In this document: one piece after another, positions 2,360 through 6,942 of the stretch | Numbering within the stretch: the stretch's first letter is position 1 | Layout of the letters: each line of letters opens with the position of its first letter | The notes under the pieces: generated by a model | What the model was told of the DNA's origin: nothing | Databases searched by the model: none | The model's input: the letters and a program-made list of their open reading frames with translations, nothing else | Assembly: GCF_904846615.1 (NCBI RefSeq) | Contig: NZ_CAJHBK010000001.1 | Span: 682,001-746,000 of the forward strand | Origin: Psychrobacter sp. JCM 18902 | GTDB taxonomy: Bacteria > Pseudomonadota > Gammaproteobacteria > Pseudomonadales > Moraxellaceae | Length of the DNA: 64,000 nucleotides | Direction: 5' to 3' | Translations under genes and position numbers: made by a program

Positions 2360-3364
2360 TTAAGAAACGCTAGTTTCTTTAGAAGAAAATTCAGCAAACG
2401 GTATTACAAATAAGTACCTATTTTTGATTACTACAAAGCTATCACCCCGTGACCTTGGATAAGAAAAGCCTTCTCCTATCTTGAGAATATTCTCTCCGTC
2501 ATGCTCAAAAATAATCTGCTTCGTAATTTGAGCTTGATGATCATTTTGCAATTCAACTAAATAAAATAGCGTTCTATGATGATAGCCGCCATCAAACACA
2601 GCTTTATTACCATCAATAATAAAAGCACTGCTACCAGAAACTGGCATATGCCAGTAATTATTGATTTCATAATTTTGAATACGTACTAAGTCGAACTCGC
2701 CACCACAGTTGTTATAGTAATTGTAAAAATAATAAGCATAAGTTGTGGTATTTGAGGAGACATTTAGTGAATAACAGTCGTCCATTAGACATAAACCGTC
2801 TGATGGTTCAAACTCATACAGTTTTCTACCGTCAGTAGCCTGTGCAACCAATCCTGTTGAGCTTAAAATGTCATACCAGTTAGAACTATAGCGCCCATCG
2901 AATATACCTTGATCGAAATAACTGATCCAAATAATATCATTTTTGGTAACTTGCACTTCAGCAACACCATCACCTAGTGGAAGCTGTTGCTTTAATTCGC
3001 CATCGATAGAATAAATATAGCCATTTTTATCATAATCATTTTCACTTCTGTATTGAGAGCGACTATTGAATAATAAAATGTCACCGTTGCTATGTCGTTG
3101 CACATTGTCAAAATTCACCTCTGCCCTAATCTCTGCATATAGTGACAATGCGTTACTATTATCTTTTGTCTGCCAAATCTGATAGGTCTTTGGTTGATCT
3201 CGGTTCGTTTTGACAGAATTAGATTCATTAATACCTTTACGATTACCTATCAAGTTGATGGATATCAGTACCAATAATTGACCTGCATAGTCTAGAGATA
3301 AATTAACAAACTCGCCTTTAGGTAGTTCGGTATAGGGCTGAATATCTTTCGTAATAGTTTTCAT
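2360..3364 (-). CDS. hypothetical beta-rich (propeller-like) protein in the rtc locus
   Basis: This 334-residue protein has no signal peptide, no membrane segment and no recognisable catalytic motif. It has repeated short beta-strand and aromatic patterns such as GDILLFNSRSQY, NDIIWISYFDQGIF, KLYEFEPSDGL and AFIIDGNKAVFDGG, spaced about 40-50 residues apart, as expected for a beta-propeller-like fold. The segment GDGVAEVQVTKNDIIWISYF recalls uncharacterised proteins of this type in other bacteria. The ATG at 3364 lies 31 bp after the CCA of the tRNA-like module and 17 bp before the MafI-like gene. The function is unknown, and pairing with the immunity-like gene suggests an accessory or conflict-related role (inference). 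Confidence 0.6.
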   Translation of the reverse strand: MKTITKDIQPYTELPKGEFVNLSLDYAGQLLVLISINLIGNRKGINESNSVKTNRDQPKTYQIWQTKDNSNALSLYAEIRAEVNFDNVQRHSNGDILLFNSRSQYRSENDYDKNGYIYSIDGELKQQLPLGDGVAEVQVTKNDIIWISYFDQGIFDGRYSSNWYDILSSTGLVAQATDGRKLYEFEPSDGLCLMDDCYSLNVSSNTTTYAYYFYNYYNNCGGEFDLVRIQNYEINNYWHMPVSGSSAFIIDGNKAVFDGGYHHRTLFYLVELQNDHQAQITKQIIFEHDGENILKIGEGFSYPRSRGDSFVVIKNRYLFVIPFAEFSSKETSVS

Positions 3365-3395
3365 CTTGTTCTCATTATTTTTATAATTTTAAATG

Positions 3396-3586
3396 TGGTA
3401 GATACGACGGGAGTCGAACCCGTATCAATGCAATAACTACTAAGCTAGATTAAAAACTCAGCCTATGACTAATACATAAGGTCTTAGCTTTTGTGCGAGG
3501 GACGAGCACTGAGCTGAACTCTTAAAGGAAGCAAAATTATGAAAAGCATATTTACCAGCGTTTAAAGAACTCCGATGCTGAGGCTA
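3396..3586 (-). ncRNA. candidate tRNA-like non-coding RNA between rtcB and the downstream genes
   Basis: Read on the minus strand, 3423-3407 is a perfect tRNA T arm: 5-bp stem ACGGG/CCCGT around the canonical loop TTCGACT. It is followed by seven bases CGTATCT (3406-3400), a discriminator A and an encoded CCA (3398-3396). No matching 5' acceptor strand, D arm or anticodon arm precedes it, so it is not an ordinary tRNA. Upstream within 190 bases are a hairpin with a 7-base loop (3462-3467 with 3475-3481) enclosed by CTAAG/CTTAG (3440-3444 with 3483-3487), and a GTGC/GCAC hairpin (3493-3509). GATACG just before the T arm could instead pair with CGTATC. tRNA-mimicking Y RNAs (YrlA type) are known beside rtcBA in Salmonella, which makes this the favoured reading. 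The 5' end is a guess. Confidence 0.45.
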
Positions 3587-3631
3587 GGCTTTTTAAGCTT
3601 TTGCTTTTTTAAGCTTTTGCTTTTTTAAGCC
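3587..3631. repeat. 16-bp tandem repeat just after rtcB
   Basis: About 2.8 copies of a 16-bp unit (TTTTTTAAGCTTTTGC on the plus strand) lie between the rtcB stop and the tRNA-like RNA. The ends GGCTT and AAGCC are mutually complementary, so a transcript could fold back. It may act as a spacer, processing site or weak terminator. Confidence 0.6.
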
Positions 3632-3659
3632 AAGCGCATAACCTCTAATCATCTTACGT

Positions 3660-4892
3660 TTAGCCTTTAACACAAACCACCTGCCGCAAGGTATGCACCA
3701 CTTCCACTAAGTCACTTTGTGCTTTCATGACGTCATCGATATTTTTGTATGCTGCTGGAATCTCATCAATTACATCCGCGTCCTTTCGGCATTCTACGCC
3801 CGCAGTCTGTGCCATTTGATCGGCGACTGTAAATACCTTTTTCGCCTCAGTACGTGACATGATACGACCTGCGCCATGCGAGCAAGAGCAAAATGACTCT
3901 TCGTTTCCTTTACCGCGCACGATGAATGATTTGGCACCCATTGACCCCGGAATGATGCCGTATTCACCAACGCGGGCACGGACCGCGCCTTTGCGAGTGA
4001 CGAATACTTCTTCGCCATAATGCTCTTCTTTGGCCACATAGTTGTGATGACAGTTCACCGCTTTTACGGCTGCATCAAACGGCTTAGGTATGATATGGTG
4101 TAGGGCTTTGATGGCTTTTTCCATCATGATTTCACGGTTTTTAAAGGCAAAACGTTGCGCCCAACCGACGGCAAACCAATAGTCATCGAAATGCTCTGTA
4201 CCCTCGGCAAAGTAGGCCAAATCTTTATCAGGCAAGTTGATGAACCATTTGCGCATGTCTTCACGTGCCAGCTCAATAAAATAGCGACCGATGGCATTAC
4301 CCACACCGCGTGAGCCTGAGTGCAGCATGATCCAAACTTGGTTGGTTTCATCAAGGCACACCTCGACGAAATGGTTACCCGTACCCAGCGTACCCAAATG
4401 GTTAAGGTTATTGGTATTTTTAAGTTTAGGATGCTTTTGGGTTATATAATCAAAGTCATCCACCAGCGTTCCCCAGCCGTTCATTACGGTATCATCAGGG
4501 TTTGCCCATGCGCCAACATCACGGCGTGACCCGCGACCACGCGTTTTACTACGACCATGTGGAATGGCTTTTTCTAGTTCGGTACGCAGACCAAGCAAAC
4601 TATCTGGCAAATCGTTTGCGGTTAGGGTGGTTTGCACTGCCATCATCCCGCAGCCGATATCGACGCCAACGGCAGCCGGAATAATCGCTTCTTTGGTTGG
4701 CAATACCGTACCGATAGTCGCGCCAATACCAACGTGTACATCGGGCATCACCGCAAGCCATTTATAGACAAACGGCATTTTTGAGGCTTTGATCAATTGG
4801 TCGTGTGCTTTTGGATCGACGGGCACGCCTTTAGTCCAAAGTCTAATCGGCGTTCCACCGTCTTGAATGATGTTATGAGTAGTTGGTTGCAT
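3660..4892 (-). CDS. rtcB: RNA-splicing ligase RtcB
   Basis: The 410-residue protein matches RtcB end to end (E. coli RtcB is 408). Visible landmarks are MPDVHVGIGATIGTV, the Mn-binding GVDIGCGM with its Cys, GTGNHF, LHSGSRGVG and SHGAGRIMSR, whose His at about residue 339 is the guanylylated nucleophile. RtcB joins RNA 2',3'-cyclic-phosphate or 3'-phosphate ends to 5'-OH ends using GTP and Mn2+. ATG at 4892 follows AAGGAATACAAC. The gene is divergent from rtcR and carries a sigma54-type promoter 62 bp upstream, so it is probably silent until RtcR senses RNA damage. The genes after it are the tRNA-like RNA, two accessory genes and rtcA. Confidence 0.97.
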   Translation of the reverse strand: MQPTTHNIIQDGGTPIRLWTKGVPVDPKAHDQLIKASKMPFVYKWLAVMPDVHVGIGATIGTVLPTKEAIIPAAVGVDIGCGMMAVQTTLTANDLPDSLLGLRTELEKAIPHGRSKTRGRGSRRDVGAWANPDDTVMNGWGTLVDDFDYITQKHPKLKNTNNLNHLGTLGTGNHFVEVCLDETNQVWIMLHSGSRGVGNAIGRYFIELAREDMRKWFINLPDKDLAYFAEGTEHFDDYWFAVGWAQRFAFKNREIMMEKAIKALHHIIPKPFDAAVKAVNCHHNYVAKEEHYGEEVFVTRKGAVRARVGEYGIIPGSMGAKSFIVRGKGNEESFCSCSHGAGRIMSRTEAKKVFTVADQMAQTAGVECRKDADVIDEIPAAYKNIDDVMKAQSDLVEVVHTLRQVVCVKG

Positions 4893-4953
4893 GTTGTATT
4901 CCTTAGCGTTGCAAAGTTTGTTTATTATGAAAGATGATTCTTGCTTTATATGA

Positions 4954-4969
4954 TGCTAAGGGCGTGCCA
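4954..4969 (-). promoter_or_regulatory. sigma54 (-24/-12) promoter of rtcB
   Basis: The minus strand reads TGGCACGCCCTTAGCA: a full TGGCACG -24 element and a GC -12 element with exactly 10 bases between GG and GC, as sigma54 requires. It sits 62 bp before the rtcB ATG and faces it, opposite the sigma54 activator gene rtcR. Transcription would start near 4942. Confidence 0.8.
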
Positions 4970-5147
4970 AGTTTTTAATATACTCAAAATTTATTTATAA
5001 GTAATTGATAGTAAATGGTTTAATTTCTTAATTGTTTTTCGAATAGATTAATTTACTTAACTATGGGCTAAAAATATATAGAAATAAATCTAACTAGATA
5101 GAAAATAATATATGATTTACTAATGATAATCAGTGATAAGTAATATT

Positions 5148-6869
5148 ATGAACAGTGATTCGAACAACAAAACTGCCGTCATCGGCTTCCTCGGCACTAC
5201 TTTAGACAATGGTTTTAATGATAAGCGTTGGCAGCGTTGGCGACCAACCGTCAGTTTAGGCCTGCATGATGAGTTGCTCGTCGATGAGCTGCATATTTTA
5301 TATAGCAAGCGTGATAAGCGCCTGTTTAAAATAATTGTCGATGACGTGGCACAAGTTAGTCCGAACACTACCGTTATTGGTCATCATGTGGCATTGATTA
5401 GTCCGTGGGATTTTGCCGATGTTTATGCTGAGCTGTATGACTTTGCCGCAGGGTTTGATTTTCAGGATAGTACCGATTACTTGCTGCATCTGACCACAGG
5501 TACGCACGTGGCGCAGATTTGCTGGTTCTTGTTGGTAGAGGCAGGCTTTATTCCCGCAGATTTGATTCAGACCTCGCCTTGCCCAAGACCTGACCAAGCC
5601 GATCCGCAAGGTCGCTATCAAGTGATTGACTTGGATGTCTCACGCTATGATGGATTACGTGAACGCTTTGAAGCAGAAAAACAGCAACATTGGCAAACCT
5701 TACAAGCCAATCTAGTCACCCAAAATGCCGCTTATCAAAAGCTCATCTCCGATATCGAAAAGGTCGCAACCCGCTCAACTGCACCCATACTACTGATGGG
5801 CGCAACAGGGGCGGGCAAGTCGCAATTGGCAGGCCAAATTTACGCGCTTAAAAAAGCCAAAGCCAACAGCACGCAAGGCAAAAACACGCTTGAACAATTC
5901 ATCGAGGTCAACTGCGCCACGCTGCGTGGTGACACTGCCATGAGTGTGTTATTTGGTCATGTCAAAGGGGCATTTACGGGCGCTGCGACGAGCCGTGATG
6001 GGCTGCTAAAATCAGCTGATGGTGGATTGTTATTCTTAGATGAGATTGGCGAATTAGGGCTTGATGAGCAAGCGATGCTATTGACCGCACTGGAAGAGCA
6101 GCGCTTTTATCCACTTGGCAGTGATACGCCGATTAGCGTGTCATTTCAGCTGATGGCAGGCACCAATAAAGACTTGCGGCAAGCGGTCGCTAATGGCGAG
6201 TTTCGGGCAGACTTGTTTGCGCGTCTCAATACGTGGACGTTTTTTCTGCCATCACTCAAAGATAGGCTAGAGGACTTACCAGCCAATATAGATTATGAAT
6301 TGGCGCGCTTGGGTAGCGAGCAACAGCAGCATTATCGATTTATGCCAGAAGCAAGGCAGCTGTATGAAAGCTTTGCAATGAGTCAGGATGCGACATGGCA
6401 GGGGAACTTTCGTGATTTGACGGCCAGTATGATTCGCCTGACCACGCTAGCTGAAAGTAAAGTCATTCGCAATGATGATGTGCAAGCGGAGATTGATCGC
6501 TTAACACATCTTTGGGAGCTGCCTGACAGTTTGAGTGGCTCGAATAGTTTAATTAATGACAATAAAGGCAATAAAAATAGCCCAAGCGATAATAACCCTG
6601 ATACTAGTTTAGATAGCGAAACTGTTGAGCAGGGTAGCCATAATATTTTAAGAAGATATCTCGATGAAGAGATTCTGGCGACTATTGATCCGTTTGATGC
6701 GGTGCAATTGGCATATGTGATTGAGATTTGTATTAACCATAAAAATCAAGCAGCGGCGGGGCGCTATCTGTATGCCAACTCACGCGACAAGCTAAAAAGC
6801 CCGAATGATAGTGATAGATTGCGTAAGTATCTGATGAAATTTGGGTTGAGGTTTGATGGGTTAAAATGA
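5148..6869 (+). CDS. rtcR: RtcR, sigma54-dependent activator of the RNA repair operon
   Basis: The product matches E. coli RtcR closely. An N-terminal CARF-type sensor (about residues 1-185, with HLTTGTHVAQICWFLL) is followed by an AAA+ sigma54-activator domain: Walker A GATGAGKS, the sigma54-contact loop GAFTGA and the Walker B segment LLFLDEIGEL. The C-terminal helix-turn-helix region ends in DRLRKYLMKFGL. In Salmonella the CARF domain senses tRNA fragments with cyclic phosphate ends. ATG 5148 is preferred because it aligns with the E. coli N terminus; a GTG at 5133 would add five residues. A low-complexity Asn/Asp/Ser linker near residues 463-490 is not in the E. coli protein. It is divergent from rtcB. 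Confidence 0.95.
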   Translation: MNSDSNNKTAVIGFLGTTLDNGFNDKRWQRWRPTVSLGLHDELLVDELHILYSKRDKRLFKIIVDDVAQVSPNTTVIGHHVALISPWDFADVYAELYDFAAGFDFQDSTDYLLHLTTGTHVAQICWFLLVEAGFIPADLIQTSPCPRPDQADPQGRYQVIDLDVSRYDGLRERFEAEKQQHWQTLQANLVTQNAAYQKLISDIEKVATRSTAPILLMGATGAGKSQLAGQIYALKKAKANSTQGKNTLEQFIEVNCATLRGDTAMSVLFGHVKGAFTGAATSRDGLLKSADGGLLFLDEIGELGLDEQAMLLTALEEQRFYPLGSDTPISVSFQLMAGTNKDLRQAVANGEFRADLFARLNTWTFFLPSLKDRLEDLPANIDYELARLGSEQQQHYRFMPEARQLYESFAMSQDATWQGNFRDLTASMIRLTTLAESKVIRNDDVQAEIDRLTHLWELPDSLSGSNSLINDNKGNKNSPSDNNPDTSLDSETVEQGSHNILRRYLDEEILATIDPFDAVQLAYVIEICINHKNQAAAGRYLYANSRDKLKSPNDSDRLRKYLMKFGLRFDGLK

Positions 6870-6942
6870 AGCATCTTTCATAAGACAAAACCCATCAACT
6901 AAGCCAAGATACTCGTACTATAGCTTTATCATTTATTCTCTT

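Follow-up and report, generated by a model that had tools for sequence, protein, structure and literature searches.

Downstream of rtcB, the window (the whole 64-kb stretch of DNA analysed here) carries a short tRNA-like segment that is probably, at roughly two chances in three, the decayed 3′ end of a family of RNAs that has, as far as we found, not been described. Full-length members of this family have a 7-bp acceptor stem with a G3:U70 pair, A73 and CCA, a D arm, a T arm, and a domain of two hairpins and a long stem that replaces the anticodon arm. The segment lies in an RNA-repair locus, the features of which are collected in Table 1.

Table 1. Features of the RNA-repair locus and of the RNA remnant in the window.
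Feature	Coordinates	Strand	Support or remark
rtcA, RNA 3′-phosphate cyclase, 365 aa	911..2008	-	PF01137 240.5 bits; TIGR03399 315.1 bits, above cut-off
Cargo protein, 97 aa	2049..2342	-	weak MafI-immunity likeness, 15.7 bits, below cut-off 31
Cargo protein, 334 aa, directly after the RNA	2360..3364	-	no Pfam match at E 0.1
tRNA-like RNA, 3′ remnant	3396..3439	-	covariance model E 1.5e-9; nhmmer 3.4e-7; alignment to G004
CCA of remnant, encoded	3398-3396	-	
A73, discriminator base of remnant	3399	-	
Acceptor 3′ strand CGTATCT, within remnant	3406-3400	-	
T arm, within remnant	3423-3407	-	perfect 5-bp stem ACGGG/CCCGT around TTCGACT
Variable region, 4 nt, within remnant	3427-3424	-	
3′ strand of long stem P, within remnant	3435-3428	-	
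Dispersed ~120-nt repeat of the genus, where the 5′ part of the RNA is expected	3487..3610	-	separate from the RNA; a single match in own genome
rtcB, RNA ligase, 410 aa, first gene of the operon	3660..4892	-	PF01139 439 bits
Sigma54-type site TGGCACGCCCTTAGCA, 77 nt upstream of the rtcB start	4954..4969	-	11/12 consensus positions
rtcR, RtcR domain and sigma54 activator, 578 aa	5133..6869	+	NF038308 685 bits (cut-off 650); PF06956 233 bits

The initial annotation had picked out a perfect T arm, a 7-base acceptor strand, a discriminator base and an encoded CCA on the minus strand, all of which were confirmed at 3423-3396. Together these elements are more than chance. A search of the segment with an nhmmer profile of seven relatives gave an E-value of 3.4e-7, the first of our covariance models (R1) gave 29.0 bits and an E-value of 1.5e-9 (unfiltered, 6 kb), and the second (R2), with a forced 5′ end, gave 30.7 bits. 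The last 44 nt are identical at 39 of 44 positions to the syntenic RNA of genome G004 and at 24 of 44 to the tmRNA of the window's own genome, which is a separate gene scoring 195.5 bits. The similarity to G004 continues into the downstream flank (38/45 identical), and the gene after the RNA in G004 resembles the gene after the remnant; by eye, proteins like the 334-aa cargo protein come after the RNA in both G004 and G093. A full-length match to the family (models R1-R3) was not found for the window, where the likeness covers the 3′ 44 nt only. The portion belonging to the RNA is about 3396-3439 and not 3396-3586 as first annotated.

An absent 5′ acceptor partner had also been noted, and indeed no full 7-bp partner for CGTATCT exists in the gap downstream of rtcB. 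Within 3381-5000 there are only three full partners, all inside rtcB (4395, 4386 and 4363), and 20 further sites with one mismatch. Three of the seven bases of the acceptor 3′ strand differ from G004; the T stem is still perfect, its single change relative to G004 turning a G:U into an A:U pair. Because of the changed acceptor bases and the lack of a full 5′ partner in the gap, the window copy is a relic, missing its 5′ part, of an RNA that is intact in relatives. A working module in this genome is unlikely given that the RNA is here a 3′ remnant without its 5′ part, and the function proposed below would accordingly be lost in this genome. ARAGORN called neither a tRNA nor a tmRNA in the window, and no Rfam family reached its gathering score in a scan of the full 64 kb. 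A BLAST search of the genome with the segment found no second copy, such as an intact tRNA with this 3′ end. The several other hairpins described earlier in the gap are unremarkable: the region 3390-3590 folds no better than its shuffles (z 0.48), and 3487-3610 is a dispersed genus repeat, likely a small mobile or REP-like element. When the gap was used as a query, matches were obtained in 50 of 100 genus genomes (own included). In five genomes the match was confined to the T-arm end (query 223-271), and in the other 44 it fell outside this end, mostly at window 3610-3487, with up to four matches each.

In the five genomes with a match at the T-arm end, of which G004, G083 and G089 were inspected first, the T arm closes a complete RNA on its 3′ side. 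GGGCATG pairs there with CATGTCC, a D arm comes next, and a long insert separates it from the T arm and CCA. BLAST with this RNA gave some match in 10 of 105 genus genomes, namely seven full-length copies, the window, and two short matches (G042, G103); over the 3′ end, the genus copies are mutually 39-44/44 identical if G084, which has a T-loop insert, is excluded. Covariance models were then built in turn from 7 (R1), 11 (R2) and 15 (R3) sequences. R1 returned at least 11 strong matches from 348 family genomes, each of at least 149 bits. R2 returned at least three members from 369 class genomes (G590, G379 and G586; 66.5-102.6 bits) and assigned 175.8 bits to a copy on the Eleftheria terrae plasmid NZ_CP106953 that had been found by BLAST. 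With R3, at least one member was recovered from 299 phylum genomes (G835) and at least four from 390 order genomes (G835, G1140, G1293 and the already known G320); in 20 genomes from the order of G586, it recovered G586 itself only, among the candidates scored. The large searches scored the best 5-7 candidates per genome, making the member counts lower bounds, and the sampling amounted to 1,847 genome visits, many of them repeats, with at most 390 genomes per search and some drafts.

G835, G1140 and G1293 were absent from the model that found them and scored 110.6-129.3 bits, and R3 reached a maximum of 38.4 bits on 35 weaker candidate loci, as against 110.6 bits for the weakest member. These 35 comprised 28 weaker matches, six non-member pattern stretches and a viral contig; the weaker loci L165-L168, L117, L118, L122, L123, L127, L130, L176 and L177 were identified by ARAGORN as tRNAs or tmRNAs. 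A pattern scan of 84,980 species yielded 15 stretches, nine of them members by R2, with L147, L148, L150, L151, L155 and L157 rejected by the same model. The viral contig fits the sequence pattern and was rejected as unmatched by the covariance models, and a second viral sequence pattern gave no matches. BLAST detected copies neither in phages nor in E. coli genomes, and among plasmids only in that of Eleftheria. The 18 full-length copies, 211-332 nt long, come from seven genomes of the same genus, four in two other genera of the family and seven elsewhere, and the distribution is rare and patchy (7/105 genus and at least 11/348 family genomes). No Rfam family matched the RNA at its cut-off, and a description of it was not found in the open-licence literature, an earlier mention being possible.

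The predicted fold comprises the 7-bp acceptor stem, a 3-bp D arm, hairpin B, hairpin C (GUAA loop), an 8-bp stem P around the interior and a 3′ hairpin whose loop contains UAA; a linker of about four nucleotides leads to the T arm, and CCA ends the RNA. A domain of ~150 nt thus stands in place of the anticodon arm, which is absent from all 18 members. Both sides change in 35 of the 57 pairs over the 18 sequences, compared with 19.2±2.5 in shuffles (0/500 as high) and 9-17 in a slid-structure control, figures to be read with the fact that this alignment was fitted to the model and leans towards the structure and that the shuffles ignore relatedness. The corresponding number is 22/57 with 11 sequences and 10/57 in alignment A1, which holds seven sequences and was not fitted to the structure. 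Over the 18 sequences 93.2% of cells are paired, rising to 99.2% in the acceptor stem; support is weak for helices 6 and 7 (79% and 76%). Single unconstrained folding of the seven genus RNAs recovered the acceptor stem in six (not G093) and the D arm in three. Inserts of ~62 nt occupy the D loop of G093 and G084, and G084, which also has the T-loop insert, is maybe degenerate on account of the two. Two single-stranded loops are kept, the GUAA of hairpin C in 18/18 and the UAA of the 3′ hairpin loop in 17/18 (by column). Comparison of the members shows the structure of the family through this covariation.

The acceptor end of the RNA has the marks of alanine identity. G3:U70, A73 and CCA are each present in 18/18 full-length members, and pairs 4, 5 and 6 of the acceptor stem covary while 3:70 is invariant; G093 additionally carries G2:U71. 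In a control set of 102 distinct tRNAs from the fetched loci, G3:U70 occurs in 3/3 tRNA-Ala and 1/99 others. A tRNA called as Met in an rtcB-linked array (L181, 1338-1411) has G3:U70, which is unusual outside tRNA-Ala. G3:U70 is described as the major AlaRS determinant, with alanine identity given as G3:U70/A73 (PMC9976931), and the same pair is described as completely conserved in tmRNA (PMC3985003). We infer strongly that the RNA would undergo tRNA-like trimming and that AlaRS would attach alanine to it. It shares G1-C72, G3:U70, A73, CCA and the D and T arms with tRNA-Ala and differs from it in lacking an anticodon arm, and at none of the 18 loci is the RNA called by ARAGORN.

With tmRNA (SsrA, RF00023) the new RNA shares the G3:U70 acceptor, A73, CCA, the T arm, a long insert replacing the anticodon arm, and the predicted alanylation, whereas its base-paired D arm (3 bp), its length of 211-332 nt and the lack of a conserved tag frame set it apart. 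RF00023 (gathering 47) scored 13 of the 18 members at 13.2-26.3 bits and returned no match for the remaining five at the E limit used, the highest scores falling among the more distant members, and R3 gave 27.8-37.3 bits on five true tmRNAs, about like tRNAs. With a maximum of 26.3 bits against a cut-off of 47, tmRNA identity was rejected, pseudoknots being outside the comparison. No conserved tag frame was found: judged by eye, the frame of the block CTGGCGCGCGTTTCC with respect to the conserved UAA loop is not constant, so tmRNA-like template switching is unsupported. An open stretch of at least 10 codons ending at the loop UAA occurs in 12/18 members. A remote common origin of the RNA with tmRNA or tRNA-Ala is possible.

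The Y-RNA-like identity proposed by the initial annotation did not hold. RF02553 (gathering 69) left the RNA unmatched at E up to 10 at its coordinates in G083, G089, G004 and G000, and, for the 15 remaining members, at E 0.1, yet it detects true YrlA copies in G083 (71.3 and 28.1 bits), G089 (77.5, 59.8, 46 and 30 bits) and G586 (92.3, 66, 60.2 and 49 bits). These copies lie between rsr and rtcB, apart from the new RNA. The two RNAs have in common a tRNA-like acceptor, D and T arms and a home in RtcR/RtcB operons. In YrlA, however, the ends pair into an Rsr-binding stem, so that the tRNA-like part would be permuted, whereas the new RNA ends in a 7-bp acceptor stem and CCA. YrlA is described as 90-150 nt long with a large stem made by its 5′ and 3′ ends (PMC8394870). 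Y RNA identity was thus rejected on both the failure of RF02553 and the topology. The absence of Ro60/Rsr from the window extends to the whole of its genome, in which a search for TROVE (PF05731) finds none; the domain is present in 2/105 genus genomes. Because Rsr/Ro60 was found for only 3/18 members (whole genomes for the seven genus members, fetched stretches for the other 11), Rsr is not the general partner of the RNA.

Comparison of the loci shows the RNA to be placed in predicted RNA-repair loci, mostly with RtcR: 17/18 members are near rtcB or an RtcR-linked kinase/RNA ligase, and RtcR is present in 13/18 fetched stretches. Ten of the 18 full-length copies (seven genus members, G168, G835 and G1140) are downstream of rtcB by 7-2303 nt, which answers the conservation test set by the initial annotation, and in eight of these rtcA follows further down with the RNA sitting between the two genes. 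Three others are directly upstream of rtcB (G379, G586 and Eleftheria), and that of G590 is inside a tRNA array (13 tRNAs and a slipin-type protein) after an rtcB fragment. In G327, G320 and G328 the RNA has rtcR on one side and a kinase/T4-type RNA ligase on the other (the G327 ligase matches RNA_lig_T4_1 at 34.4 bits, which exceeds the cut-off), in loci that also encode a phosphoesterase-like protein (named by eye, no Pfam match), rtcB and rtcA being absent from the fetched stretches. The remaining locus, G1293, has three tRNAs but lacks rtcB and rtcA over about 29 kb in each direction, and its only likeness to RtcR is weak and confined to the activator part. tRNA genes are beside the RNA in 4/18 loci and in none of the other 14, and three of the four also have a slipin-type protein. 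The gene order in G835 and G1140 is rtcR, rtcB, RNA, rtcA, tRNAs and slipin type, and G1140 adds a PolyA_pol-head/HD protein resembling the CCA enzyme, together with an RlaP-like nucleotidyltransferase. The idea of a tRNA-mimicking RNA belonging to an RtcR/RtcB/RtcA locus is thus supported in relatives; in the window itself it applies to a 3′ remnant. Only 7/43 of the rtcB loci fetched from the genus carry the RNA, so repair functions in its absence.

Sigma54 control, another element of the initial annotation, is a candidate mode of regulation. Sigma54-type sites (at least 9/12) were found upstream in 10/12 loci scanned, window included, and none was found at L182 or L183; sites scoring at least 9 occur at 0.59 per kb and strand (6 loci), so that chance alone would give ~0.3 such sites in 500 nt. 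Each of the three ligase loci has a sigma54-type GG exactly 28 nt ahead of the RNA, which places the predicted transcription start 3 nt short of the RNA's 5′ end. Under a strict -12 GC rule, a sigma54 site precedes the RNA in 0/3 of these loci, the -12 position being GA or GG.

RtcR is described as binding 5′ tRNA fragments with a cyclic phosphate (PMC7790460). Among the RtcB ligation targets found in E. coli, tmRNA was the most frequent (PMC9650030), which ties the RtcB pathway to ribosome rescue. When tRNAs are cut, RtcR and sigma54 would switch on the repair enzymes and the RNA together; the RNA would be trimmed to its CCA end and alanylated, and EF-Tu would carry the alanylated RNA to ribosomes starved of intact tRNA, where it may help to free or protect them as a tag-less functional counterpart of tmRNA. 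We put forward this joint model, in which an RtcR-induced, alanylated RNA borne by EF-Tu serves tRNA-starved ribosomes, as a tentative one that may well prove wrong. It is somewhat doubtful that the RNA would amount to a third bacterial tRNA-like stable RNA besides tmRNA and Y RNA, charged with alanine, devoid of an anticodon, induced with RNA-repair enzymes and reserve tRNAs upon tRNA cutting, and rescuing or parking stalled ribosomes tag-free. A precedent for an RtcB operon with a translation-rescue partner is provided by the RtcB-PrfH operons, which also carry the ribosome-rescue factor PrfH; the partner there is a protein and here an RNA. The company of an alanyl tRNA-like RNA with two unrelated repair chemistries (RtcB/RtcA and kinase/ligase), tRNA arrays and RtcR would point to a translation-side arm of the response. 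If the alanine reading is true, the single pair G3:U70 should decide function. As a structured RNA that Rfam 15 does not contain, the family would be an addition to that collection.

Other functions can be imagined for the intact RNA. With no anticodon loop to cleave, it might act as a decoy or inhibitor that occupies tRNA-cutting nucleases or tRNA-binding toxins uncut and, being produced alongside the repair enzymes, buys time, as has been proposed for the tRNA-like domain of YrlA (PMC7790460). The missing anticodon arm in 18/18 and the company of RtcR, which responds to tRNA fragments (PMC7790460), fit such a role, but a decoy needs neither the G3:U70, A73 and CCA kept in 18/18 nor a large conserved interior, and we consider it unlikely. 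We regard as similarly unlikely a YrlA-like scaffold, the tRNA-like end of which would bind PNPase or another tRNA enzyme and the interior another protein, steering RNA decay or repair. Proximity to tandem YrlA genes and Rsr in G083, G089 and G586 argues for it, and the conserved GUAA (18/18) and UAA (17/18) loops suggest protein or tertiary contacts; however, Rsr was not found for 15/18 members, and a partner gene common to all loci was not seen. The position between rtcB and rtcA in the eight loci with both genes in that order, and the full acceptor and T arms, would also suit punctuation, with RNase P and 3′ processing cutting the transcript as at tRNAs in mixed operons. Yet in three loci the RNA would be the first transcribed item after the predicted promoter, with nothing upstream to separate, and a plain tRNA would suffice, since neither the ~150-nt interior nor G3:U70 would need conserving; this role is improbable.

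The window copy may be read differently as well. That a variant of YrlA is involved, as first proposed, would account for a tRNA-like module in an RNA-repair operon and for Rsr in 3/18 loci, but the failure of RF02553 next to the true copies it detects, and ends formed by an acceptor stem and CCA instead of the end-formed large stem of YrlA (PMC8394870), render it very improbable. An integration scar, with a mobile element having left behind a tRNA or tmRNA 3′ end, would explain why just the 3′ 44 nt of an RNA are present in a gap whose cargo genes vary from genome to genome. This is at odds with the closer match of these nucleotides to the syntenic G004 RNA than to the own tmRNA, with the shared downstream flank and with the single copy in the genome, and is the reading to which we give least credence. 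A remnant still in use, perhaps terminating the rtcB mRNA as an element for 3′ processing or stability, would agree with the perfect T stem and its pairing-preserving change, but three of seven acceptor bases have changed, the 5′ partner is absent and the arrangement was seen in one genome only, so continued use is improbable. The reading of the segment as a decayed 3′ end of the new RNA family is therefore preferred.

Several further observations concern the loci themselves. The rtcB-rtcA gap contains varied cargo genes across the genus, often including a 152-aa ORF (DIP1984 family where tested). In G042 (L047/L058), an apparent extra T arm is one of three scraps resembling a tmRNA 3′ end (L058 4540, 6012 and 9436); PF01139 finds no RtcB in this genome, and the T-arm scraps are possible integration scars. 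Loci L136, L137 and L139 combine RtcR with a kinase, a T4-type RNA ligase and a phosphoesterase-like protein, without rtcBA in the stretch, an operon that represents an alternative RtcR-linked repair system. In L188 and L189 the RtcR/rtcBA operons run on into tRNA arrays followed by a gene of slipin type. One of the tRNAs in L188 is a tRNA-Ile for which the anticodon AAT was called, and L189 additionally has HNH-like (by eye), CCA-enzyme-like and RlaP-like genes. The order in L183 and L164 is RtcR, rsr, four YrlA-type copies, the new RNA, rtcB, an RlaP nucleotidyltransferase and rtcA, which puts the two kinds of tRNA-like RNA into a single operon. In G004 (L051, about 6820-6930) a duplicated rtcB tail (residues 377-410) stands directly before the RNA, an arrangement that looks as if the rtcB tail and the RNA had been duplicated as a unit.
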